Part shown: piece by piece, positions 3,167-35,986 of the stretch | Layout: every line of letters starts with the position of its first letter | Position numbering within the stretch: position 1 is the stretch's first letter | Origin: Cyanobacteria bacterium SW_9_44_58 | GTDB lineage: Bacteria > Cyanobacteriota > Cyanobacteriia > Cyanobacteriales > Rubidibacteraceae | Direction: 5' to 3' | Assembly: GCA_003021905.1 (NCBI GenBank) | Contig: PXPI01000113.1 | Location: 1-35,986, forward strand | Length of the DNA stretch: 35,986 nt | Made by a program: the position numbers and the translations under genes | Notes under the pieces: generated by a model | What the model was told of the DNA's origin: nothing | What the model saw: the letters and a program-made list of their open reading frames with translations, nothing else | Database searches by the model: none

Positions 3167-4588
3167 ATGAGTATGGGACAAAACACTCAAAAAGTTAAGA
3201 ACTTCCGAAAACGAGTTGCGAAAAAAGTTCCCTTGGGATTTGCCCAACTGTGGAACATGAGTTTCGGCTTTTTCGGGATTCAGTTTGGTTGGACCTTGCA
3301 AATGGCCAATACTAGTGCCATTTATGAATATCTTGGTGCCAATCCTGAGCAAATTCCCATTTTATGGTTAGCTGCCCCTATGAGCGGCTTGATTGCCCAG
3401 CCCATTATTGGCTATCTCAGCGACCGCACTTGGACTAGATTAGGGCGTCGGCGGCCTTATTTCCTTTTTGGGGCAATCATGAGTTCACTCGCTCTCATTT
3501 TAATGCCCAATTCTTCGACTTTATGGATGGCAGCGGGTGCCTTATGGATCTTAGATACTTCCGTTAATATCAGCATGGAGCCCTTTCGAGCCTTTGTTTC
3601 CGATTTAGTTCCAGAGGAGCAACGAACTCTGGGATTTGGGATGCAGGCCTTTTTCATTGGTTTAGGGGCAGTAACAGCTTCCATTTGCCCCTGGATCTTG
3701 AATAATTGGTTGCATTTAGATCAAATTGTTACTCCAGCAGGGGAAATTCCGTTTACCGTTAAAATTTCCTACTATATTGGGGCTGCCGTCTTTTTCGGCA
3801 CCGTATTGTGGACTGTGTTAACTACTAAAGAAGAACCTCCCCAAGATTTGGAAGCTCTTAAACAACGGCAAGCCAACATAGGCGGCATTATTGGTCTGTT
3901 TAAAGGAATTTTCCAAAAAGTTGGCACCATGCCTCAGGTGATGAAAGAATTAGCCTGGGTACAGTTTTTTACTTGGTTCGGCATTTTCTGTGTCTTTTTG
4001 TATTTCCCACCGGCAGTGGGACATGAAATTTTCGGTGCCACGAAAGAAAGCTCTTCTCTCTATCAGCAAGGCATTGAATGGGCTGGAATTTGTATTGCTG
4101 CCTACAATATTGTCTGCTTTATTTATTCTTTATTCCTATCTCGCGTTGCAGCCGCTACTAGTCGCAAAGCAACGCATTCCTTTAGTTTATTCATGGGCGG
4201 CGCCGGTTTAATTTCATTATTCTGGGTAGAAAATCCCTATCTACTGTTGTTGCCCATGGGATGTTTTGGTCTTGCTTGGGCCAGTGCTTTAACCATGCCT
4301 TACTCGATGCTATCGGATGTTTTACCAGTGAAAGACACAGGCATTTATATGGGATTGTTTAATGCCTTTATTGTGCTTCCCCAAATCGTGGCATCCTTAG
4401 GATTAGGTTGGGTTATGGAACATTTATTAGGCAATAATCGGATTTTAGCCTTAGTGGCTGGCGGTATTTCCATGGTCATTGCGTCGATATTAGTACAGTG
4501 GGTAACGGATGTCGCCAAACAAGAACAAACCACTGGAAAAACACCGAAGGCGAAGTTGGTTCCCGAAGGTTCAGAAACAGCTAGCTAA
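3167..4588 (+). CDS. MFS transporter, SLC45/sucrose-transporter-like
   Basis: A 473-aa polytopic inner-membrane protein with about twelve hydrophobic segments. The loop between helices 2 and 3 carries GYLSDRTWTRLGRRRPYFL, the RxGRRRP signature of the SLC45/plant sucrose transporter (GPH-like) branch of the major facilitator superfamily. A second family-like loop, NISMEPFRAFVSDLVPEEQR, lies near residue 135. Proton-coupled uptake or export of a di- or oligosaccharide or glycoside is the usual role; the substrate here is unknown. ATG at 3167 is used although no clear Shine-Dalgarno precedes it; an ATG two codons later is equally possible. The next operon's promoter box begins nine bases after its stop, so it is probably a separate transcript. 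Confidence 0.85.
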   Translation: MSMGQNTQKVKNFRKRVAKKVPLGFAQLWNMSFGFFGIQFGWTLQMANTSAIYEYLGANPEQIPILWLAAPMSGLIAQPIIGYLSDRTWTRLGRRRPYFLFGAIMSSLALILMPNSSTLWMAAGALWILDTSVNISMEPFRAFVSDLVPEEQRTLGFGMQAFFIGLGAVTASICPWILNNWLHLDQIVTPAGEIPFTVKISYYIGAAVFFGTVLWTVLTTKEEPPQDLEALKQRQANIGGIIGLFKGIFQKVGTMPQVMKELAWVQFFTWFGIFCVFLYFPPAVGHEIFGATKESSSLYQQGIEWAGICIAAYNIVCFIYSLFLSRVAAATSRKATHSFSLFMGGAGLISLFWVENPYLLLLPMGCFGLAWASALTMPYSMLSDVLPVKDTGIYMGLFNAFIVLPQIVASLGLGWVMEHLLGNNRILALVAGGISMVIASILVQWVTDVAKQEQTTGKTPKAKLVPEGSETAS

Positions 4589-4596
4589 TTGATTTC

Positions 4597-4638
4597 GTAG
4601 CAGATGTTACTGTCTTTCCTTAATTGCCTGTGCAGAAT
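4597..4638 (+). promoter_or_regulatory. Candidate NtcA-activated promoter of the guanidine operon
   Basis: GTA (4597-4599), eight bases, TAC (4608-4610) is an exact match to the NtcA consensus GTA-N8-TAC. It is followed after 22 bases by CAGAAT (4633-4638), which keeps A at position 2 and T at position 6 of a -10 box. This spacing is that of class II NtcA-activated promoters. A better-looking GATAAT lies at 4642-4647 but 31 bases away. NtcA is the cyanobacterial activator for nitrogen limitation, so the site fits a nitrogen-scavenging operon. Confidence 0.5.
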
Positions 4639-4666
4639 AAAGATAATCATAACTTCATACAAATTG

Positions 4667-4763
4667 CTTCTAGGGTTCCGACTGTGCTCTTAGCTCGGTG
4701 ACTGGTCCAAGAGAAGCACGCACTCAACTGAGATAGCGACACGGCGGGGCAAAAGCCCGGGAG
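4667..4763 (+). promoter_or_regulatory. Guanidine-I (ykkC) riboswitch aptamer
   Basis: All three conserved blocks of the ykkC RNA are present in order: CTAGGGTTCCG (4670-4680), ACTGGTCCAAGAGAAGCACG (4701-4720), and ACACGGCGGGGC followed by AAAAGCCCGGGAG (4739-4763). A closing P1 stem can form between CTTCT (4667-4671) and GGGAG (4759-4763). This class binds guanidinium. The downstream gene for a guanidine-hydrolase-type ureohydrolase agrees with the ligand. The P1 strand 4759-4763 overlaps the left arm of the following terminator, so ligand binding should switch expression on. Confidence 0.95.
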
Positions 4764-4806
4764 GTCTCAACGGCAGTAACCACTGTCAAGGGGTCTCCTT
4801 TTTTTT
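4760..4806 (+). terminator. Riboswitch-controlled intrinsic terminator
   Basis: GGAGGTCTC (4760-4768) pairs with GGGGTCTCC (4790-4798), partly through G-T pairs. An inner stem GGCAGT (4772-4777) pairs with ACTGTC (4782-4787) around the loop AACC. Eight T residues follow (4799-4806). Four bases of its left arm are also the 3' strand of aptamer P1, so the two folds exclude each other. Confidence 0.9.
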
Positions 4807-4865
4807 ATTGTCATGATCTGAAACAATTTGAGGAAGAATAATAATCGAGGAGGAACGGAAACATT

Positions 4866-6029
4866 ATGACCAATAATAATAATCAATCAAGTGAAGCCGA
4901 TCGCGCTTTAGATAAAGAAAACCGGTTGCCGCTAACGGGATGGCAACAGGAAGTGTCTCAGGGCCTAGATTATGGGTTAGAAGCGGCCGATAGTATTCGC
5001 GATCGCGATATTTCAACCTTTTCCCGAGGCGAATTGCCCCACTATGCTGGGATTAATACCTTTCTAAAAGCCCCTTATCTGGAAGATGTCAAGGAAGTGG
5101 GAAACTATGATGTCGGAATTGTCGGCGTTCCCCATGATTCCGGCACCACTTACCGTCCCGGCACGCGCTTTGGCCCCCAAGGCATTCGCAAAATTTCTGC
5201 CCTCTATACTCCCTATAACTTTGAATTAGGCGTTGATCTTCGAGAACAAATCAGTCTTTGCGATGTGGGAGATATTTTTACGATTCCTGGGAATAATGAA
5301 AAGTCGTTTGACCAAATTTCAAAAGGGGTCGCTCACATTTTTAAATCGGGAGCCTTTCCCATTATTTTAGGCGGCGATCATTCCATTGGTTTTCCAACGG
5401 TACGAGGGTTATGTCGTCATTTAGGGGATAAAAAAGTGGGCATTATTCATTTTGATCGCCATGTCGATACCCAAGAAACAGACCTCGATGAACGGATGCA
5501 TACTTGTCCCTGGTTTCACGCCACCAATATCAAAAATGCCCCGGCAAAAAACCTAGTTCAATTAGGAATCGGCGGATGGCAGGTTCCCCGTCAAGGCGTC
5601 AAAGTCTGTCGCGAACGAGCGACAAATATTCTGACAGTTACAGATATTACAGAAATGGGATTGGATTCTGCCGTAGATTTTGCCTTGGAACGCGCTTTAG
5701 ATGGGACGGATTGTGTATATATCAGCTTTGATATCGACTGCATTGATGCCGGGTTTGTTCCGGGGACAGGTTGGCCGGAACCAGGCGGGTTATTACCCCG
5801 AGAAGCCCTTTCTTTGTTAGGAAAAATTGTACAGCAAGCACCGGTTTGCGGCTTAGAGGTAGTGGAAGTTTCTCCACCTTATGATGTTAGCGATATGACC
5901 GCTTTAATGGCGACACGAGTCATTTGCGATACCATGGCGCATTTAGTTGTTTCTGAACAACTGCCTCGGCAAGAAAAGCCCGGTTATATCCATGAACAAG
6001 CCCAAGAAACAGCAGATAATTGGCGCTAA
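4866..6029 (+). CDS. gdmH: Nickel-dependent guanidine hydrolase (ureohydrolase family)
   Basis: A 387-aa arginase/agmatinase-fold enzyme, predicted to hydrolyse guanidine to urea and ammonia in the cytosol. Metal-binding motifs are GGDHS (169-173, His172), FDRHVD (196-201, Asp197, His199, Asp201) and SFDIDCID (287-294, Asp289, Asp291), followed by PGTGWPEPGG (299-308). The usual DAH is DRH here, and an N-terminal extension of about 80 residues precedes the fold. To my knowledge both features mark the Sll1077/GdmH group and not true agmatinases. The riboswitch upstream and hypA/hypB downstream support this strongly, because characterised GdmH needs nickel and its co-encoded chaperones. ATG at 4866 has an excellent GAGGAGG site. 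Annotation as speB/agmatinase would be the common error. Confidence 0.92.
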   Translation: MTNNNNQSSEADRALDKENRLPLTGWQQEVSQGLDYGLEAADSIRDRDISTFSRGELPHYAGINTFLKAPYLEDVKEVGNYDVGIVGVPHDSGTTYRPGTRFGPQGIRKISALYTPYNFELGVDLREQISLCDVGDIFTIPGNNEKSFDQISKGVAHIFKSGAFPIILGGDHSIGFPTVRGLCRHLGDKKVGIIHFDRHVDTQETDLDERMHTCPWFHATNIKNAPAKNLVQLGIGGWQVPRQGVKVCRERATNILTVTDITEMGLDSAVDFALERALDGTDCVYISFDIDCIDAGFVPGTGWPEPGGLLPREALSLLGKIVQQAPVCGLEVVEVSPPYDVSDMTALMATRVICDTMAHLVVSEQLPRQEKPGYIHEQAQETADNWR

Positions 6030-6046
6030 AAAGAGGCTAAGTTCCG

Positions 6047-6418
6047 ATGCATGAAACCGACATGACCAAAGCCTTAATTCTCACCATTAAAGATTGGTGG
6101 GAAGCGCAACCAACACCGCCCAATATTGAAAAAATTCATTTGCTAGTGGGGGAATTTACTTGTGTGGAACCTCGCAGTTTGCAATTTGCTTTTGAAACGC
6201 AAACCCAAAACACATTTCTATCTGGAGTAGAATTAGTAATTAAAGACATTCCTTTGATTGCTTTTTGTCATCCTTGCCAGCAACAATATTGGCCAAAAAT
6301 CGGAGAACAATATGCTTGTCCCCATTGTCATTCTCCCATGGAGGATATTCGCTCAGGCAGAGAACTAAAAATTGATCGTATTGAATACAGTGAAAACAAT
6401 TCGCTTGCTTCTTCTTAA
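6047..6418 (+). CDS. hypA: HypA-family nickel chaperone
   Basis: A 123-aa protein that delivers nickel during metalloenzyme maturation. It begins MHE, the N-terminal nickel site (amine, His2, Glu3) of HypA, which fixes the start at 6047. It has the structural zinc site CHPC (74-77) and CPHC (91-94). The core VGEFTCVEPRSLQFAFE is family-like. It starts 17 bases after gdmH and precedes hypB. No hydrogenase or other hyp genes are in the window, so it is best read as a dedicated paralogue serving the guanidine hydrolase. Family call is firm; the dedicated role is inferred from context and from the known GdmH system. Confidence 0.93.
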   Translation: MHETDMTKALILTIKDWWEAQPTPPNIEKIHLLVGEFTCVEPRSLQFAFETQTQNTFLSGVELVIKDIPLIAFCHPCQQQYWPKIGEQYACPHCHSPMEDIRSGRELKIDRIEYSENNSLASS

Positions 6419-6447
6419 AATTAAAATTATTAATTCGGTAAGAAAAG

Positions 6448-7137
6448 ATGCACCAAACAGTTAATGCCGCCTTAGGGGTCAATCTTCTTCAGGCGAACCA
6501 AACTGAAGCTAACCATAATCGAGACCATTTTGATGCTTGGGGAATCACTTGCTTCAATTTAATGAGCAGCCCAGGCGCTGGAAAAACGGTTTTATTGGAA
6601 AAAACGCTCTCGGTTTTGTCATCCCAACTTAATTTGGCGGTTATTGAAGGGGATATGACAACAGAATTAGATGCGGAAAAATTGCGTCAATCAGGGGTTC
6701 CTGTTATTGGGATTAACACCGGGCGTTCTTGTCATCTCGATGCCAAAATGGTGGCTGGTGGATTGCATCAGCTTCAGGAAAATTATCAACCGGAAACCTT
6801 TGATTTAATTTTTGTGGAAAATGTGGGGAATTTAGTGTGTCCTGCTGAATTTGAAGTGGGAGAACATACTAAAGTTGCGCTGCTTAGTGTCACCGAAGGG
6901 GACGATAAACCGCTAAAATATCCCGTTATGTTTCAAGAAGCGGACTGTCTTTTAGTGACCAAAATGGATATCGCCCCCCATTTAGATATTGATATCAACC
7001 GCATTGAAGAAAATGTCCGGCAAATTAACCCCAATGTCACCATTATTCCAGTTTCAGCAAAAACTGGAGAAGGATTAACGAATTGGTTCAATTGGGTTTA
7101 TGAACGAATCAATCAAAATAGTATCGCAACTCATTAA
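6448..7137 (+). CDS. hypB: HypB-family nickel-inserting GTPase
   Basis: A 229-aa SIMIBI-class GTPase that powers nickel transfer. The P-loop is SSPGAGKT (40-47), with [13 protein letters not shown] (67-79) following. The G-domain metal site keeps Cys95-His96 (in [10 protein letters not shown]) and Cys131 ([13 protein letters not shown]). The guanine-specificity motif is TKMD (171-174), with SAKTGEG near 203. The N-terminal CxxGCG high-affinity nickel site of enterobacterial HypB and the His-rich tract of rhizobial HypB are both missing. It sits 29 bases after hypA and 9 bases before the transporter genes. With hypA it likely loads nickel into the guanidine hydrolase. Confidence 0.93.
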
Positions 7138-7146
7138 AAGAAGACT

Positions 7147-8190
7147 ATGAAATTCACCAAACTCTTATCTCGACTAGCTTTATTTTCCCTAAGTTTAGTT
7201 CTCGTGATTAGCTGCAATAGTACCAATGAATCCCCGAATTCCCAAGGCAATACTGATGAACAAGCAACAGGAAAACCGGTTGTCTTGGGGTATAGCAATT
7301 GGGCTGGATGGTGGCCTTGGGCGATTGCGGAAAAAGAGGGATTATTTGAACAAAATGGGGCCAACGTGAAGCTGCAATGGTTTGATGGCTATACTTCCTC
7401 CATGGAAGCTCTTGCCGCCGGCAAAATCGATGCCAATTGTCAAACTTTAAATGATACCGTTTCCTTTGCCCCAGAGGCTGTCAATGGCGAAGTGGCAGTT
7501 TTGGTGAACGACAATTCTGCTGGCAATGACAAAATTATTGCAACTGAAGAAATTCAATCCATTCCGGAATTAAAAGGACAAGATGTCGCAGTGGAAGTTG
7601 GCGTTGTGGATGATTTTCTGCTGAGTCTTGCTTTAGAAGAAGAGGGAATGTCACGCAGCGATGTCAATATTGTTGACTTAGAAACCGGGGCGGCAGCGGC
7701 TGCTTTTGTTTCCAAAAAAGTGGATGCCGTTGGTGCTTTTCCTCCTTTCTGGTTAACAGCTTTAGAACGGGAAGGCAGTCATGAATTGATTAGTTCGGCA
7801 GCTTTTCCTGGGGCGATTCCCGATTTATTAGTAACTACTCAAACCTTAATCGATGAACGTCCTGAGCAAGTGCAAGCGTTGGTTAATACTTGGTTTGATA
7901 TTCTCGAATTTATGGATAATAATCCGGAACGGGCTGATGAAATCATGGCAGAACGGGCCAATGTGACAACTGAAAAGCTGCAGCTATTTAAAGAAGGAAC
8001 TGATATGTTCACCTTAGAGGAAAACTTAACAGCTTTTAGCGATGGCAATAGCATGAAACATATGCCTTATGCGGCTCAAGAAATGGCCGATTTTATGGTA
8101 AACGTCGGTTTTATTCCGCAAAAATCGGATGATTTAAGTTCAATTTTTAATGACAGCTTTGTAAAAACTTATGCGGAAAAGCAAGAGTAA
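7147..8190 (+). CDS. ABC transporter substrate-binding lipoprotein (SsuA/TauA/NMT1-like)
   Basis: A 347-aa periplasmic binding protein anchored as a lipoprotein: the signal ends VLVISC with Cys23 as the lipidated residue. The binding fold starts at about residue 47 with VVLGYSNWAGWWPWAIAEKE, the pattern of nitrate/sulfonate/taurine-type (NMT1/SsuA) receptors. Several Trp and acidic residues (W54, W57, W58, the run AEKEGLFEQ, W72, D74) could line a site for a cation such as guanidinium, but this is inference. It begins nine bases after hypB and is followed by its permease and ATPase. Guanidine or a guanidino compound is the most likely cargo by context. Confidence 0.85.
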   Translation: MKFTKLLSRLALFSLSLVLVISCNSTNESPNSQGNTDEQATGKPVVLGYSNWAGWWPWAIAEKEGLFEQNGANVKLQWFDGYTSSMEALAAGKIDANCQTLNDTVSFAPEAVNGEVAVLVNDNSAGNDKIIATEEIQSIPELKGQDVAVEVGVVDDFLLSLALEEEGMSRSDVNIVDLETGAAAAAFVSKKVDAVGAFPPFWLTALEREGSHELISSAAFPGAIPDLLVTTQTLIDERPEQVQALVNTWFDILEFMDNNPERADEIMAERANVTTEKLQLFKEGTDMFTLEENLTAFSDGNSMKHMPYAAQEMADFMVNVGFIPQKSDDLSSIFNDSFVKTYAEKQE

Positions 8191-8264
8191 TATTGATCAA
8201 TTTTTGGTTTCTTGATGGTTATAATTCCTCGCCTGAAATTCTCGCAATAAAATAAGGAGTAATG

Positions 8265-9095
8265 ATGGCTAATGTTTCAGTAGATAACAATCAATCTCAA
8301 GGATTGCCGCCGACAATTTTTTGGCGTATTGCTGAAGATATTCCCCAACTTTTGCAGTGGGGACTAATGGCAATTTCGATTATTATTCCTTTCTTTTTAT
8401 GGTGGTTATTGGCAAGTTTTGGAACAGTTGAAGATGTGTTTCTTCCGAGTCCTCCCCAAGTAGCAGAAGCCTTTGGGCATCTCTGGCAACAAGGACATTT
8501 AATTCAAGATACCGCTGCCAGTTTTTTGCGTGTTGTCGGGGGATTTGTTTTCGCGGCAGCGGTTTCCATTCCTTTAGGGATAGCAATGGGAACCTTTGCC
8601 AGTATTCGGGCACTATTTGAACCCATTGTCGGTATTATCCGTTATATGCCGGCAGCTGCTTTTGTGCCCCTTTTAATTATTTATTTGGGAATTGGTGAAG
8701 CCCCGAAAATTGCACTCATTTTCATTGGAACGCTCTTTTTTAATACTTTGATGATTATGGATGCGGTTAAGTTCGTTCCCAAAGAGTTAATTGAAACCAC
8801 ATATACGTTAGGAGGAAAACGGTGGCAGGTATTATTTCAAGTCATTACTCCCTACGTCGTTCCCAATATTATTGATGCATTTCGCATTAATATGGCAACC
8901 TCTTGGAACTTAGTGATTGTTGCGGAATTAGTGGCTGCCGAACAAGGGCTCGGCAAGCGAATTTTATTAGCCCAAAAGTTTCTGAAAACGGATGAAATTT
9001 TTGCTTGTTTGATTGTTTTAGGATTAATTGGATTTCTAATTGATTTGTCATTGCGCTTATTGTTTCGAGTGTGGTGCCGCTGGGCAATTAAATAA
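8265..9095 (+). CDS. ABC transporter permease (SsuC/TauC-like)
   Basis: A 276-aa inner-membrane protein of the BPD_transp_1 family with about six hydrophobic segments. The cytoplasmic coupling motif is readable as ETTYTLGGKRWQVLFQVITP, the EAA loop that docks on the ATPase. An ATG lies at 8262 and another at 8265. AAGGAG at 8254-8259 is only two bases from the first and five from the second, so 8265 is preferred. It follows the binding-protein gene after 74 bases, the largest gap in the operon, and precedes the ATPase gene by 27 bases. Together the three genes make a complete importer. Confidence 0.88.
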   Translation: MANVSVDNNQSQGLPPTIFWRIAEDIPQLLQWGLMAISIIIPFFLWWLLASFGTVEDVFLPSPPQVAEAFGHLWQQGHLIQDTAASFLRVVGGFVFAAAVSIPLGIAMGTFASIRALFEPIVGIIRYMPAAAFVPLLIIYLGIGEAPKIALIFIGTLFFNTLMIMDAVKFVPKELIETTYTLGGKRWQVLFQVITPYVVPNIIDAFRINMATSWNLVIVAELVAAEQGLGKRILLAQKFLKTDEIFACLIVLGLIGFLIDLSLRLLFRVWCRWAIK

Positions 9096-9122
9096 TTTTT
9101 TTATGAGTTAATTAGGTGAATT

Positions 9123-9914
9123 ATGCATTTAGAAGTCGCGAATTTATCAAAAGAATTTACAACCAAAGAAGGGAACGTTTCTGCTCTCAAAAACGTCAAT
9201 TTACATATTGAAACCGGAGAATTTGTGTGTACTGTCGGGGCATCCGGTTCTGGAAAATCAACCCTGCTGCGATTAATTGCAGGACTGGACTATCCCACTT
9301 CCGGTAAAATTACAGTTGATCAAGTGCCAGTGATTGGTCCAGGGCGCGATCGCGGGATGGTTTTTCAACGCTACACCCTCTATCCTTGGCTGAATGTCGC
9401 GAAAAATGTGGAATTCGGTCTAAAGTTGCAAGGCATTCCCAAAGCCCAACGACGGGAACGGGTTTCTTATTATTTGGATGTGGTGGGATTGACTCAGTTT
9501 AGAAAAAATCTCCCAAAAGCCCTTTCTGGAGGAATGAAACAACGGGTTGCCATTGCTAGGGCATTAGCCTGTGAACCGAAAATTTTATTAATGGATGAAC
9601 CCTTCGGGGCTTTGGATGTGCAAACCAAAGAAAGCATGCAACAGTTTTTATTGGAAGTTTGGCGGCGCACGGGCACCACCATTTTAATGATTACCCATGA
9701 TGTGGAAGAAGCGGTGTTTCTGTCCCAGCGAATTTATGTATTAACCGCTCGTCCCGGAACTGTGAAACAGGAATTTCAGATTAATTTACCGGAAAATGAA
9801 CAAGGGGCGCGATCGTATCACGTTAAAACGCTGTCTGATTTTCAACGGTATCGAGAAAAGATTACCCAACTCCTTAGAGACAGCACTGTTGAACAAGAAG
9901 TGATGGTGGGATGA
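9123..9914 (+). CDS. ABC transporter ATP-binding protein (SsuB/TauB-like)
   Basis: A 263-aa nucleotide-binding subunit with all motifs: Walker A GASGSGKST (39-47), Q-loop Gln82 in VFQRYTLYPWL, signature LSGGMKQ (134-140), Walker B ILLMDEP (154-160), D-loop GALD, and switch His in MITHDVEEAV. The sequence is of the nitrate/sulfonate/taurine importer class. It is the last gene of the guanidine operon; I see no clear terminator in the 214 bases after it, so read-through into the AIM24 genes is possible though those have their own leader-like gap. Confidence 0.92.
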   Translation: MHLEVANLSKEFTTKEGNVSALKNVNLHIETGEFVCTVGASGSGKSTLLRLIAGLDYPTSGKITVDQVPVIGPGRDRGMVFQRYTLYPWLNVAKNVEFGLKLQGIPKAQRRERVSYYLDVVGLTQFRKNLPKALSGGMKQRVAIARALACEPKILLMDEPFGALDVQTKESMQQFLLEVWRRTGTTILMITHDVEEAVFLSQRIYVLTARPGTVKQEFQINLPENEQGARSYHVKTLSDFQRYREKITQLLRDSTVEQEVMVG

Positions 9915-10128
9915 AAATGAACGAGGCGCAATCCGCTTACTTAGGCAGTTGTTAATTTAAGTATTATTGCTTGCTCTGCATAACCATTTGATCCAGTAGT
10001 GACAATGTGATGATTTGACAAAGATATATAAAGAAGCATCAATCATTGTGATAATTCTGATATGGTTGATATACGCTATTAATCAAGGAGTGAGACTCCC
10101 TTAAACAGACGTTGGGGAGAGTTAAGTT

Positions 10129-10794
10129 GTGGAATACGAGATTCGATATAAACCTGCTTTTTCAACGATATTTGTAGCGCTGAAGCCGGGAGACAAGATT
10201 ACGGCTGAAGCCGGGGCAATGACTAGCATGGATGCCAACCTTCTGATGAAAACAAAATTTTCAGGAGGGTTTTTTTCTGCTTTACTTAAGAAGTTTCTCG
10301 GGAAAGAATCGCTATTTGTCAATACGTACATCAATAATAGCGATGAAACCTTAAGCATTGTCTTAAGTCAATCCATTGTTGGGGATATTGAAGCCCTTGC
10401 GTTGGAAGATAGCGAAATTTGTTTGCAACCGGGGGCTTATATTGCCCATACTTCCGGCATTGATATGGGAGTTGCCTTTGCCGGATTTGCCAGCTGGATA
10501 GCAGGAGAAGGCTTATTTAAGCTGAAGCTGAAAGGGCAAGGAACTGTATTTTTTGGGGCATATGGCGGTTTGACCAAAAAAGAAATTTCTGGGGATTATG
10601 TGGTGGACAACGGGCATTTAGTGGCCTACGAACCGAATATCCAGATGGGAATCCGTCTCGCTGGCGGCATTTTTGGTTCCCTTACCTCTGGTGAAGGCTT
10701 AGTGAACAAACTCAAAGGCAGCGGAACAATTTATCTACAATCGCGCAGTGTCAATAGTTTAGTCAGATTTCTCAAACCAAAAGTACCCAAGTAA
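10129..10794 (+). CDS. AIM24 family protein, paralogue 1
   Basis: A 221-aa protein of the AIM24/TIGR00266 family, a beta-rich fold whose bacterial function is unsettled (the yeast namesake is mitochondrial). Family hallmarks are AEAGAMTSMDANLLMKTK near residue 26, then GKESLFVNTY, the GDYVVDNGHLVAYE block near residue 155, and GEGLVNKLKGSGTIYLQSRS near the end. The start is GTG at 10129 with GGGGAGA upstream; no ATG would include the conserved N-terminus. There is no signal peptide. It is the first of three tandem paralogues, separated from the second by five bases. Confidence 0.85.
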   Translation: MEYEIRYKPAFSTIFVALKPGDKITAEAGAMTSMDANLLMKTKFSGGFFSALLKKFLGKESLFVNTYINNSDETLSIVLSQSIVGDIEALALEDSEICLQPGAYIAHTSGIDMGVAFAGFASWIAGEGLFKLKLKGQGTVFFGAYGGLTKKEISGDYVVDNGHLVAYEPNIQMGIRLAGGIFGSLTSGEGLVNKLKGSGTIYLQSRSVNSLVRFLKPKVPK

Positions 10795-10799
10795 AAGCG

Positions 10800-11489
10800 A
10801 TGGATATCAAATTACGGTCTCAACCGGATAGCGCGATCGCGCATATTACGTTAGCCAAACAAGAAAACATCTATGCCCAAGCAGGCTGTATGGTTGCCAT
10901 GAGTGCCGATATTGAAGCGGATACTACTTTGAGGCGAGGCAAAGGCGGTGGCATTTGGGGCGGCATTAAACGCATGGTTGCTGGCGAGTCTCTGTTTTTA
11001 AGTCGATTTACTTGCACCAGTGAAGAAGGAGAAATTTTTCTTGCCCCCAAATTAATTGGCGATGTCATGGCCTACGAACTCTCAGGAAATGAATTAGTGG
11101 TGCAAGCAGCCTCTTATCTTGCCAGTTCGGAAAACGTCGATCTTGATGTGGGGTTTCAAGGGTTGAAGTCCTTTTTCTCAGGAGAATCCATTTTTTGGCT
11201 ATCTCTCTCTGGCTATGGTACAGCAATTATTACTTCCTTTGGGGGCATTTATGCCATTCCTGTCGATGGGGAATATATTGTCGATACCGGTCACATTGTT
11301 GCCTTCGAAAAAAGTCTGGACTTTAAAGTGACCAAAGCCGGTTCCAGTTGGATTGGTTCCCTCTTAGGCATTGGCGGCGAAGGATTAGTCTGTCGGTTTG
11401 AAGGACGAGGGAAAGTCTATTGTCAAACTCATAATAATGGGGAATTCGGTCATTTAGTCGGGTCGCAACTTCCGCCGCGAAGGGAATAA
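10800..11489 (+). CDS. AIM24 family protein, paralogue 2
   Basis: A 229-aa AIM24-family protein. It repeats the landmarks of its neighbours: AQAGCMVAMSADIEADTT, then AGESLFLSRFTC, GEYIVDTGHIVAFE and GGEGLVCRFEGRGKVYCQTH. It starts five bases after the first paralogue and ends 19 bases before the third, so the three are surely co-transcribed. Divergence among the three is large, which suggests old duplications and a hetero-oligomer, as tandem AIM24 triplets recur in bacteria; that oligomer is inference. Confidence 0.85.
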   Translation: MDIKLRSQPDSAIAHITLAKQENIYAQAGCMVAMSADIEADTTLRRGKGGGIWGGIKRMVAGESLFLSRFTCTSEEGEIFLAPKLIGDVMAYELSGNELVVQAASYLASSENVDLDVGFQGLKSFFSGESIFWLSLSGYGTAIITSFGGIYAIPVDGEYIVDTGHIVAFEKSLDFKVTKAGSSWIGSLLGIGGEGLVCRFEGRGKVYCQTHNNGEFGHLVGSQLPPRRE

Positions 11490-11508
11490 CAGAAAAAGGA
11501 ATCAGAAG

Positions 11509-12237
11509 ATGGTTAAAGATTACAGTGAATACAGCTACCGCGTGGAACACTCTCCTATCTATGCAGCGCTAACCGTGGACCTAGAAATGGGTCAATCCCT
11601 GTTAGTCGAATCCTCAGCTATGGCAGGGATGGATTCTTCCATTAAAATGAAATCGTCGATGCGAAGCGGCATTGGTAAGAGTATCGGACGGTTAGTGAGT
11701 GGCGAGTCTCTTTTTGTCAGTAAGTTTACCGCTTCAAAAGATGCTGGGAGTCTTTATCTTGCCCCAGCGACATCAGGAGACATTGTCCACTATTACCTCG
11801 ATGGCAAAACCGGATTAATCGTTCAATCCTCAGGGTTTCTGGCTTGTAGTCCCAACGTAGAAACGGAAACCAGGTTTGAAGGGTGGCGAGGCTTTTTTAG
11901 CGGTGAATCGCTGTTTTTAATTCGTGCTGTGGGAGAAGGAGATTTCTGGTTTAGTTCCTATGGCGCAATTATTGAAGTACCTGTGACTGGAGAATATATT
12001 GTCGATACCGGCTATATTGTTGCTTTTGAAGATAGCTTAGATTATAACGTGGAACTCATTGGCGGACTTTCTTTCAAAAACTTGAAAACCGGTATTTTTG
12101 GCGGTGAAGGATTAGTTTGCCGCTTCCAAGGGGAAGGACGAGTGTGGATTCAATCCCGTAAACTGAGTCAACTGATTAATTTTCTTAATCCTTTTCGAGC
12201 GGTTAAAAGCAACAATAATGACAATGGCGATGATTGA
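11509..12237 (+). CDS. AIM24 family protein, paralogue 3
   Basis: A 242-aa AIM24-family protein with VESSAMAGMDSSIKMKSS, then SGESLFVSKFTA, GEYIVDTGYIVAFE and GGEGLVCRFQGEGRVWIQSR. It is closer to paralogue 2 than to paralogue 1 in the C-terminal motifs. The C-terminal tail (SNNNDNGDD) is acidic and probably disordered. A TauE/SafE permease gene begins three bases after its stop, so the permease belongs to the same transcript. Start ATG at 11509 has AAAAGGA upstream. Confidence 0.85.
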   Translation: MVKDYSEYSYRVEHSPIYAALTVDLEMGQSLLVESSAMAGMDSSIKMKSSMRSGIGKSIGRLVSGESLFVSKFTASKDAGSLYLAPATSGDIVHYYLDGKTGLIVQSSGFLACSPNVETETRFEGWRGFFSGESLFLIRAVGEGDFWFSSYGAIIEVPVTGEYIVDTGYIVAFEDSLDYNVELIGGLSFKNLKTGIFGGEGLVCRFQGEGRVWIQSRKLSQLINFLNPFRAVKSNNNDNGDD

Positions 12238-12240
12238 AAC

Positions 12241-13008
12241 ATGGAAGACATTTGGTTACTGGCAGGAGGCGGACTCTTTTCGGGGTTGCTGGCTGGGTTA
12301 TTAGGGATTGGCGGCGGCACTGTTTTAGTTCTCATTATTATTACCGTGGGCTATACGCCTGTACAAGCGGTGGCAACCAGCAGTCTCGCCATTGTCTTAA
12401 CAGCCTTATCCGGCAGTATTCAAAACTACCGCATGGGCTACTTGGACTTAAATCGGATATGGAGTTTAGGCTTTTCTGCCATTATTACTGCCCAACTGGG
12501 GGCTTATATTGCCACAGGGCTTCCTGATAATCAACTTTTAATTGCCTTTGGTATCTTACTTCTCGCCAATATTGGTTTAGCCAGTTGGCGGAAAAAACTC
12601 GTTCAACAAGAAGATCCAAGTCAACAACAGACACGAAATCAAACTTTAGCGCGGATTGCAACAGGAGGAATCGCCGGATTTTTTGCGGGCTTATTTGGCA
12701 TTGGCGGCGGCGTCATCATGGTACCGTTGCAAATGGTTTTACTGGGAGAATCGATTAAAGTTGCCATTCAAACCAGTTTAGGGGTTATTGTCATTACTTC
12801 CGTTTCGGCAACTCTAGGCCATGCTTGGCAAGGGAATGTTCTTTTTTTACAAGGATTGGTGTTAGGATTAGGGGGATTAGCGGGGGCGCAGTTGAGTACC
12901 CGTTACTTGCCCAAACTGCCCGATCGCGCGATTCGATTCGGTTTTTATACCCTACTGGCGTTACTTGCCGTTTATACGTTTTGGCAGGCTGGCCTTTTTG
13001 GCAATTAA
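12241..13008 (+). CDS. TauE/SafE-family membrane permease
   Basis: A 255-aa membrane protein of the TauE/SafE (DUF81) family, proposed exporters of sulfite, sulfoacetate or other organic anions. Two internal repeats are visible, each opening with a glycine-rich helix: LLAGLLGIGGGTVLV near residue 18 and FFAGLFGIGGGVIMV near residue 148. About eight hydrophobic segments are present. It lies three bases after the third AIM24 gene and overlaps the end of the convergent DndD-like gene by four bases. The cargo is unknown; the family is often over-annotated as sulfite exporter. Confidence 0.88.
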   Translation: MEDIWLLAGGGLFSGLLAGLLGIGGGTVLVLIIITVGYTPVQAVATSSLAIVLTALSGSIQNYRMGYLDLNRIWSLGFSAIITAQLGAYIATGLPDNQLLIAFGILLLANIGLASWRKKLVQQEDPSQQQTRNQTLARIATGGIAGFFAGLFGIGGGVIMVPLQMVLLGESIKVAIQTSLGVIVITSVSATLGHAWQGNVLFLQGLVLGLGGLAGAQLSTRYLPKLPDRAIRFGFYTLLALLAVYTFWQAGLFGN

Positions 13009-15074
13009 ACCGGATTAACTTCTCGAATTTCGGTATATTCAAAGCCGTTTTCACTCGGTTTTACTAAGGGATACCGTTGCCCATTAATGGTTAACCAGTC
13101 TTCTTGACAATCCGGTTTCGGAGAAAAGTAAACTAAAACATATTGTTTCCCAATAAAGGGAGTCATCTCTTCTGCCACTTCCCCGCGCCATTGAGTTTTT
13201 GTTGCCAACACCACCAGCTGATTGGCAATGTTCGGCAAGGCTTTTGCCACCTGTCGGCGGTAAACTTCATCCAAACTGCCAAAGGGCGAATCCATCACCA
13301 TCGGAAATGTGCTGCTATCAGGGGCAATGAGGGTATTCTTGGCACTCCAATTGCGGACGCGATCAATAATCCCGCCAATTAAAGAGAGACTTAAAATCTG
13401 ATTTTCTCCCGTAGAAGCAGCGACTAATTGTTCTTCTCCCGTGGTTTGTTCCACCAAACTCAACTCATAATTTTGATCTAGCTTGGGTAAATAGGGCGTA
13501 AAAGAAATATTGGCAAAAATTTCCTGAACTTTCTGTTCCAAAGTGACTCGAAACCGACGCTCAACATCCGCTTTGAGTTTTTGAATACAATGAATCGCTT
13601 CCTCAGTTGCTTTCCATCGACGCTGTGCTAATTGATGCTTTTCTTCCTTGCTTTGTTCTTGATCTAATTGTTTAGATAGGGTTTCTAATTGTTCTGTTTT
13701 TTGTTTGAATTCTATTTCATTGCGTCCTTTCTCTAAAAGGAACTCTTCCAGTTCTTTTTCGATTGTATCTAATTCAGTTTGCAATCGTTTAATCTCCTGA
13801 TCTGGATACTCTCTCAACTGCTGTTTTACCGTTTCCAATTCATTCTCTAACTTGGCAACTTTTTGGCGTAATTCAGCAATTTGTTCTTGAGTGTCATCAA
13901 CGCTTTCCCAAAAATTCATTGCTTGTTTTTCCAACTGTTGGGTATGGGCATGTAACCGAATCAGCGCTTCTTCGACATCGGCATTTTCTGCCTTATTCTG
14001 CCACTGTTTAACTTGATCGTGAGGATGTGTTCCTGGTATGAGTTCTGTCCCGCAAATGCAAGACTGTTGGTTTAATAATTTGTCAACAAATGCCTTTTTT
14101 ATACCATTGGGAAGTTCTTGGATTTGATCAAATTGATCAAATAAACTGGAACACCTCTGGGCTATCCCCTCCATTAACACAGTATAACCTTGACTGGAGA
14201 TGGTTTGTTTAATTTTTTGATTGAGACGAACTAACTGTTCTCTAGTTTCCTTTAATTCTAGCTCTAAATTGTTTTTAATACTCTGTAAATTTTCTGCCTT
14301 TTTGAGCGCTAGCAACTCTTCTCCTAAAGTTTGTTTGAGGTTTTGTTTTTCCTCAATTGTCTGTTTGATAATATTTTGACGTTCTTGAATCGCCTCAGTA
14401 TCTTGTTCTAATGTTTGTTTTTGCTTTAATAATTGTTTAGTCTTAATATCGCCAATATTGCGTAATTCTTCTTCTAAACTGCGACGAGCATTTTTTAAAT
14501 GTTCAGCAGACCGTTCAAAAATTTTAATGCCTAACAGTTCTTTCGTCGCTTCCGTTAGTCCCGTCTTTTTCTGATACCGAATAATATGATCAATGCGTTC
14601 CCCATCAAAGAAAAAATATTGATGCAAACTTGTTGGTAAAATACGGCCAATAATATCATCAGGATGTTCTAAGGGATGTTGCCAACAGCCATCATCTCCG
14701 GCAATTAGCATAAATAACTGACTTTCGCTGTTTTCTATTGTTTCATTATTTTGATGTTTGGTGGCATAACAGCGACGCTTAAATTGATACGATTTATAAT
14801 CATGTTCAAAGCTCAATTCCACAGAATACTCCACTGACTTTCCAGGAATAGCTTCTTATATCGCTCGTTTATTGACTAACTGTTCTGAGTTGGCAAACGC
14901 TGCCGTGAACTCTTCATAAAGTACCCAAGTGAATGCGTTTAAAAGGGTGGTTTTACCTGCCCCATTATTACCATGAATAATTGTGGTATTCTTGGGTTCA
15001 CCAGATAATTGAATCTCTGGTGTAAAGCCATAAAACTGACGGAAATTGCAGAGCTTAATTGACTTTAATTTCAT
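13005..15074 (-). pseudogene. DndD/SbcC-like SMC-type ATPase, interrupted by one stop
   Basis: A full-length (about 689 codons) coiled-coil ATPase related to DndD and SbcC/Rad50, read as two pieces in one frame. The N-terminal piece (15074-14856) has Walker A GNNGAGKT (35-42) and the RecF-like opening KLKSIKLCNFRQFYG. A TAA at 14856-14858 interrupts it after NKRAI. The frame then continues through EAIPGKS to a GTG at 14834 that could restart a 609-aa product. That part holds two long coiled coils, a CxC zinc-hook-like apex (SCICGTEL, DNA about 14048-14069), a signature-like STGENQILSLSLIGG and Walker B FPMVMDSPFGSLDE. Split this way neither half can form an ATPase alone. Nonsense mutation, read error and two-subunit use are all possible. 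No dndA, B, C or E genes are nearby. Confidence 0.8.
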
Positions 15075-35888: not shown

Positions 35889-35986
35889 GTTACCTAAGCC
35901 AGTAGGTTGCCCTACTGACTCGGCTCCAGAACGGTGCGTGATAGTTTCCCATCACACCGCTCCTCATCAACGAACACTAACCTTAT
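35889..35986 (-). mobile_element. Group II intron, 3' end (domains V and VI)
   Basis: On the minus strand, 35962-35929 is a 34-nt domain V: GAGCGGTGTGATGG, GAAA tetraloop context, CTATCACGCACCGTTC, with the AGC catalytic triad at its 5' side. Domain VI follows: GTCAGTAGG (loop GCAA) pairs with CCTACTGGC, and the outer CCGA pairs with TTAGG leaving one unpaired A, the branch point, seven bases from the 3' end. The intron ends GGTAAC, obeying the AY rule, next to the pilT exon. The ribozyme core and any reverse-transcriptase gene lie beyond the window. Confidence 0.88.

Follow-up and report, generated by a model that had tools for sequence, protein, structure and literature searches.

A gdmH operon resembling Synechocystis sll1077-1082 in Cyanobacteria bacterium SW_9_44_58, with comparative evidence on its importer cargo and probable nitrogen control

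What is the use to a cyanobacterium of a cluster in which a guanidine-sensing RNA precedes an arginase-family enzyme, two nickel chaperones and an importer that automatic annotation assigns to sulfonates, and what does this importer carry? The question is raised by positions 4597-9914 of the window, i.e. the whole 35,986-nt stretch analyzed here (contig PXPI01000113.1 of Cyanobacteria bacterium SW_9_44_58). The original prediction was a riboswitch with its terminator, followed by genes for a guanidine hydrolase (gdmH), HypA- and HypB-like nickel chaperones (ghaA and ghaB) and the substrate-binding protein (SBP), permease and ATPase of an ATP-binding cassette (ABC) importer. All parts were found where predicted, on the single + strand and in this order, with gaps of 17, 29, 9, 71 and 27 bases between the six genes. 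We put at roughly 0.92 the probability that 4597-9914 forms a gdmH operon akin to Synechocystis sll1077-1082 and serves to sense, import and degrade guanidine. The features are as follows.

4597..4610, + strand: NtcA-type box GTAGCAGATGTTAC (GTA-N8-TAC), a probable nitrogen-starvation activator site (exact consensus match)
4659..4765, + strand: guanidine-I (ykkC) riboswitch aptamer (RF00442 covariance model, 79 bits, gathering score 63, E 1.2e-12)
4759..4806, + strand: intrinsic terminator, hairpin 4759-4799 and eight-T run 4799-4806, an expression platform overlapping the aptamer (minimum free energy structure)
4866..6029, + strand: gdmH, predicted Ni-dependent guanidine hydrolase or guanidinase (Arginase family in Pfam/NCBIfam; best PDB match Sll1077)
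6047..6418, + strand: ghaA, HypA-like nickel chaperone (PF01155, 101.6 bits; TIGR00100 above cut-off)
6448..7137, + strand: ghaB, HypB-like nickel-insertion GTPase (CobW/HypB/UreG; TIGR00073 HypB, 307.6 bits, cut-off 121.2)
7147..8190, + strand: lipoprotein SBP of the importer, probable guanidinium binder (NMT1/SsuA family; TIGR01728, 267.7 bits)
8262..9095, + strand: ABC importer permease (BPD_transp_1, PF00528, 89.1 bits)
9123..9914, + strand: ABC importer ATPase (ABC_tran, PF00005, 115 bits; Walker A, LSGG and Walker B present)

Operons of this type have been described from other cyanobacteria, together with their induction by guanidine, the enzyme and the predicted importer (PMC8390497, PMC10119275, PMC12186494, PMC10094980, PMC8400943; all papers are cited here for those parts of their text that were available), and the window copy is well preserved and mostly ordinary. 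New here are two comparative additions of modest interest, namely evidence on the SBP cargo and the NtcA box. The comparison with Synechocystis sp. PCC 6803 sll1077-1082, proposed in the original prediction, showed the identical six genes in the identical order behind the same guanidine-I riboswitch class (PMC10094980, PMC8390497), and no functional difference was seen; Synechocystis cells that produce guanidine have higher levels of the operon products (PMC8390497). The original proposal, namely a nickel guanidinase operon that is induced by guanidine and brings its own chaperones and guanidine importer, fits the tests run and matches this published work. With Synechocystis salina, the window GdmH shared 87% identity but the SBP only 67%. 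The marine Synechococcus/Prochlorococcus clusters Syn-eCAG_001 and Pro-eCAG_004 likewise comprise speB2 (the sll1077 ortholog), hypA, hypB and a TauABC-like importer (PMC10119275), whereas most Synechococcus/Cyanobium clusters have a Rieske gene after the importer (PMC10119275) that the window lacks.

The product of 4866-6029, being closest to proven guanidinases, would be a nickel-dependent guanidinase within the arginase family. Its best PDB matches were 7esr/7oi1 (Synechocystis Sll1077, 775.5 bits) and 9fek (Nitrospira guanidinase, 581.6 bits), followed at a distance by proclavaminate amidinohydrolase (172.4 bits) and guanidinobutyrase (156.7 bits). The motifs GGDH, FDRHVD and SFDID, which we take to be the arginase metal motifs, are present. 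The residues of guanidine catalysis in N. inopinata – Thr105, His222, Trp313 and Glu344 (PMC11410670) – correspond in the window GdmH to T95, H212, W303 and E334 (offset worked out by hand from the alignment), and these four were identical in 53/53 aligned GdmH proteins, including that of the window. The comammox Nitrospira locus resembles the window in its guanidine-I riboswitch (PMC11410670) and its GdmH-type enzyme, but has an APC permease and, in the available text of that paper, no nickel chaperones and no ABC importer.

The ghaA product has two CxxC pairs and an N-terminus reading MHE. In Synechocystis, GhaA and GhaB serve GdmH (PMC10094980). The HypA/HypB-like chaperones of the window most likely do the same, since in the genome of 2.94 Mb (completeness 99.71% by tool figure) the window's ghaA was the single HypA match, searches for NiFe hydrogenase and HypD found neither (further HypB copies were not looked for), and the urease has its own accessory genes. 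The urease locus lies on contig C131, with the alpha subunit identified by family search and the order ureE, F, G, D, A, B, C taken from open reading frame (ORF) reading. Therefore, although the six-gene set is complete, the operon is not self-contained as first described, because the GdmH reaction yields urea besides ammonia, and urease is encoded on another contig; with this unlinked urease, guanidine would become a full nitrogen source, the genes being present and the flux inferred. Also seen by eye at the urease locus were a formamidase/acetamidase-like gene before ureE (L125:1184-2359) and a 240-aa ORF between ureB and ureC (L125:6751-7473).

By its riboswitch class, the window aptamer is expected to respond to guanidinium. 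In an Rfam search of 4560-4880 (E up to 1), the sole other match was a snoRNA on the opposite strand (18.5 bits, cut-off 40). The terminator hairpin folded alone to -17.8 kcal/mol, and holding its GGGAGGT unpaired cost 8.3 kcal/mol. At the level of sequence anatomy, the 5' arm of this hairpin includes the aptamer's conserved 3' GGGAG, so that ligand-bound aptamer and terminator should be mutually exclusive. The folding stability of the whole leader was unremarkable (z -1.35, 20/200 shuffles being as good); folding energy was therefore set aside as proof of a leader RNA, and the case is made by the covariance model. A stock scan of 4560-10200 did not list the leader hairpin among its terminators and returned promoter-like and terminator-like sites (12 and 7, respectively) at about the numbers found in shuffled sequence (11.9 and 6.5). 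Among 53 cyanobacterial aptamers, a T-run of at least five followed in 25 (counted from rows; four could not be judged as their 3' core was not recognized), and the Microcystis and marine Synechococcus rows were without one, so that the terminator mechanism is not claimed for every aptamer.

The analysis was extended to the SBP loci of named genomes, of which the best 80 of 123 found were kept (L006-L085). All six genes occurred in window order in 49 of these 80, and in 43 of the 56 with enough flanking sequence at either end, an arrangement not to be expected by chance. The window HypA shared only 38-44% identity with the HypA proteins of loci L053-L085, L055 and L056 excepted. In 60 related genomes, own genome included, GdmH orthologs (at least 560 bits) were present in 36 and a riboswitch above cut-off in 31, 30 of these also having GdmH and one the riboswitch only; six genomes had GdmH without an above-cut-off riboswitch, two of them with a weak sub-cut-off match (tallies counted from result rows, one of the two listings having stricter filters). 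From other genomes, 29 riboswitch loci were fetched: the riboswitch preceded gdmH on the same strand in 26 and an SBP gene in two, and in the remaining one, from a 61% complete genome, gdmH lay on the opposite strand. In Prochlorococcus loci such as L062 and L068, the operon was present, but a search with the exact-core pattern detected no guanidine-I aptamer ahead of gdmH; Rfam gave no above-cut-off aptamer in L062, the only one of these Prochlorococcus loci scanned. Control of the operon may differ in such loci.

The SBP carries a lipobox-like VISC and is thus likely a lipoprotein. Its relatives were examined in 22 fetched plasmid regions, and in seven of these (Paenibacillus, Cupriavidus, Thioclava, Agrobacterium, Rhizobium, Pantoea and Paraburkholderia) a guanidine-I aptamer stood before the SBP gene, the seven linked SBPs sharing 24-40% identity with that of the window. 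Genes for UAAP1/2 and urea (guanidine) carboxylase then follow in six of the seven, five by annotation and Paenibacillus by ORF reading; in the Paraburkholderia exception, a dioxygenase gene and UAAP1 lie upstream in the opposite orientation, and UAAP1 is itself preceded by a second guanidine-I aptamer. Guanidine carboxylase operons (guanidine-I/-II riboswitches, UAAP1/2, urea/guanidine carboxylase) therefore resemble the window in having a homologous SBP behind a guanidine-I riboswitch, but take the carboxylase route instead of GdmH. In two cyanobacterial relatives (L117:1511-2964 and L118:301-1641), the gene immediately downstream of the riboswitch encodes an SBP that shares 46-48% identity with that of the window; one of these genomes has a separate riboswitch-gdmH locus and the other is without a GdmH ortholog.

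This linkage was accompanied by a pocket signature. Tyr82 and Asp103 together were found in 25/25 guanidine-linked SBPs, 12/12 intermediate ones and 0/16 unlinked ones, D103 being present in one of the 16. The intermediates include ten cyanobacterial SBPs with no riboswitch or gdmH seen alongside, some at contig ends. In a quick tree from which columns 82, 100, 103 and 154 had been left out, all 25 linked SBPs fell on one branch (support 80), together with the 12 intermediates and two unlinked rows with long branches. Other candidate marks were discarded: D155/D156, often replaced by S, H or E in riboswitch-linked SBPs elsewhere, and T100 or V154 alone, shared by some unlinked SBPs. Guanidinium is the probable cargo, fitting linkage and pocket without amounting to proof, and the proposal stands on firmer ground than in the original prediction through the cross-phylum riboswitch linkage and the signature.

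The second addition concerns nitrogen control. NtcA recognizes the consensus GTA-N8-TAC, and the window box begins 62 bases ahead of the aptamer. A single site means little, because the window contains five exact NtcA boxes where 2.8 are expected. Across loci, such a box was found within 160 bases upstream of 36/53 cyanobacterial guanidine-I aptamers, window included (33/49 without near-copies), compared with 28/2211 other 160-base stretches of the same loci, at most 4/53 aptamers when the half-sites were spaced 3-7 or 9-13 bases apart, and 0/8 non-cyanobacterial guanidine-I aptamers; shuffling the upstream stretches of all 61 rows gave a mean of 2.8 and a maximum of seven. The sample covers only aptamers with an exact core, and its rows, many from relatives, are not independent. 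Without a pattern-recognized aptamer core the box was rarer, at 2/26 gdmH leaders and 2/12 SBP leaders. NtcA thus probably activates the operon promoter under nitrogen hunger, and box plus riboswitch suggest an AND gate that requires both nitrogen hunger and guanidine. The repression of the Synechocystis operon by excess ammonium (PMC10094980) is what such control would predict. NtcA control of the operon is not stated in the available text of PMC12930504, PMC10094980, PMC13192157, PMC13226834 and PMC8400943; Giner-Lamia 2017 (NtcA regulon) and Itzenhauser 2025 (PNAS) were not covered, and unpublished status is not claimed. A PNAS 2025 paper on cyanobacterial guanidine assimilation and riboswitch regulation, cited in PMC12930504, PMC13192157 and PMC13226834, may already settle the importer and NtcA questions.

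In addition to the typical operon, some loci showed other gene combinations. A homolog of the L055 Rieske protein follows the importer in 34/80 loci, mostly of Prochlorococcus and marine Synechococcus, with 26-53% identity outside L055. In Nodosilinea nodulosa (L055:4244-9942), the guanidine-I riboswitch is followed by a type III glutamate-ammonia ligase gene, the importer and the Rieske oxygenase, for which the best model, below cut-off, was glycine betaine monooxygenase. In L033:1430-9700, a homologous ligase gene lies inside the gdmH operon with a Rieske homolog after it, and an above-cut-off aptamer is absent. The ligase and Rieske protein of L055 and L033 might form a branch of guanidine use that involves ligation or an N-demethylase, and the Rieske homolog could demethylate methylguanidine to feed GdmH. 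A glutamine riboswitch (glnA leader, 54 bits) at L011:5656-5729 (- strand) neighbors, in opposite orientation, the genes of an SBP-permease-ATPase importer without gdmH nearby. L064, from a record titled as an Acidiferrobacteraceae metagenome-assembled genome, contains a marine-Synechococcus-like guanidine operon and is probably a binning error.

Several results weigh against the reading of the locus as a guanidine operon with a guanidinium importer under nitrogen control. An Rfam scan of 12 gdmH loci, 11 of them chosen because the pattern had missed an aptamer, gave three above cut-off and nine none, and in 12 scanned SBP loci without gdmH an aptamer was found in two and not in ten. In 12 genomes whose SBP locus lacked gdmH, a GdmH ortholog was found elsewhere in seven, broken in one and not at all in four (completeness not given), so the importer may exist without the enzyme. 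The Y82/D103 signature is no proof of ligand and follows the SBP branch, as all 12 intermediates carry it too. The SBP is far below the cut-off of the urea-carboxylase-associated model TIGR03427 (134.9 vs 333.9 bits), and membership was rejected on this score. As for the promoter, the window hexamer CAGAAT (4633-4638, read by eye 22 bases past the NtcA box) is a weak -10 compared with the TA-N3-T expected about 22 bases downstream, and a TAN3T hexamer at spacing 20-25 was present in 19/36 NtcA-box sites.

By automatic annotation, the locus would encode an agmatinase and an importer for sulfonate, taurine or nitrate, and this reading finds some footing in the scores: the SsuA_fam model TIGR01728 labels the SBP an aliphatic sulfonate binder (267.7 bits, cut-off 163.5), the AlphaFold2 model of the SBP (predicted local distance difference test score 89.5) has TauA and SsuA as its nearest folds (best TauA 6ssy, Z 30.3, root-mean-square deviation 3.3, 287 residues, 20% identity), and GdmH narrowly passes the NCBIfam agmatinase model TIGR01230 (177.3 vs cut-off 174.3). 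This excess of just 3 bits would explain the usual misnaming, however, and GdmH scored 775.5 bits to a proven guanidinase compared with 156.7 to guanidinobutyrase and 177 to 210 to two agmatinase models. In TauA, the sulfonate is contacted by Gln30, Gly61, Gly79 and Thr132 and the amine by Glu106 and Asp205 (PMC6906117). By alignment, the sulfonate positions are changed in the window SBP to Ser50 (Trp52 in a smaller alignment), Tyr82, Thr100 and Val154, an indirect comparison as three of the four contacts are main-chain, and the amine-binding acids appear kept as Asp128 and Asp226, Glu106 falling on D128 in two alignments and, less favorably, on K129 in another. On the changed contacts and the GdmH scores the automatic naming was rejected, and we regard it as highly improbable.

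The importer could instead carry a substituted guanidine such as methylguanidine, or another nitrogen compound, with the riboswitch reporting an intracellular product and not the cargo. A methylguanidine pathway is known from guanidine-riboswitch operons (PMC12508155), the Rieske homologs after the importer are possible pre-processing enzymes, and the four genomes with an SBP but no GdmH ortholog would be in keeping with such a cargo. The window operon itself (4597-9914) contains no pre-processing enzyme, however, riboswitches stand directly before SBP genes without adjoining gdmH (L050, L117 and L118), and the Synechocystis importer is called a guanidine importer in PMC12186494, PMC11410670 and PMC10094980, whose available text bears on prediction and expression rather than uptake; a substituted cargo is thus unlikely, if less so than the automatic naming. 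Detoxification, in which guanidine made inside the cell is destroyed and not assimilated, might be proposed as the Synechocystis enzyme degrades guanidine from an introduced ethylene-forming enzyme and its expression stabilizes ethylene-forming-enzyme strains of another cyanobacterium (both PMC8390497). The energy-using importer, its lipoprotein binder, the NtcA box and the urease operon argue for feeding, as does ammonium repression of the Synechocystis operon (PMC10094980), and we hold detoxification to be very improbable.

The guanidine-assimilation reading, by which the operon senses, imports and degrades guanidine, is therefore retained, and the proposed course of events runs as follows. 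Under nitrogen hunger NtcA would activate the promoter, as the box implies. The leader RNA would terminate early unless a guanidinium-bound aptamer keeps its 3' GGGAG from the terminator, a mechanism established for the riboswitch class whose anatomy is present here, and with guanidinium bound the operon would be read through. GhaA and GhaB would then load nickel into GdmH, as published for Synechocystis and supported here by homology and the absence of hydrogenase, while the SBP would catch guanidinium outside the membrane and pass it to the permease and ATPase, as linkage and pocket indicate. GdmH would split guanidine into urea and ammonia, and the unlinked urease would convert urea to ammonia and CO2. 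In more general terms, cyanobacterial guanidine operons are likely two-input gates, combining an NtcA promoter with guanidinium readthrough, coupled with an SBP from one cation-binding branch of the sulfonate-binder family that is marked by Tyr82/Asp103 and serves guanidinase and carboxylase routes across phyla.

The major facilitator superfamily (MFS) gene upstream (3167-4588) adjoins the riboswitch in two of four same-genus loci fetched (L101 and L116); it was left out of the system because no match of at least 35% identity was found in any of the 80 wider loci. Downstream (10129-12237, + strand), three consecutive AIM24-like genes are followed by a TauE/SafE exporter gene, the first AIM24 and TauE being assigned by family search and the rest by eye. 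Elsewhere in the window, a protein resembling PbeC/DndD is encoded at 13005-14834 (- strand); it scored 741 bits against PADLOC PbeC, but the match starts at profile position 83, so that the N-terminal portion seems to be missing. Three other nearby proteins were tested: two gave no defense match, and the third, a THUMP methyltransferase, gave a doubtful one (74.6 bits to mad2). A C-terminal fragment of a TnpB-like transposon protein was seen by eye near the left end (131-484, + strand) and a group II intron match (Rfam, 47.7 bits) at the right end (35889-35964, - strand).

With these findings, a nitrogen-scavenging operon already in the literature is recorded from one more cyanobacterium. Full assimilation also depends on the unlinked urease, a point to consider when the operon is moved into another host, and Y82/D103 may serve as a sequence test for guanidine importers automatically annotated as sulfonate or urea transporters. 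The combination of NtcA box and riboswitch would account for the lower expression of the Synechocystis operon with ammonium and its higher expression with guanidine; if so, the importer and the nickel enzyme would be paid for only when the cell is both starved and guanidine-fed.

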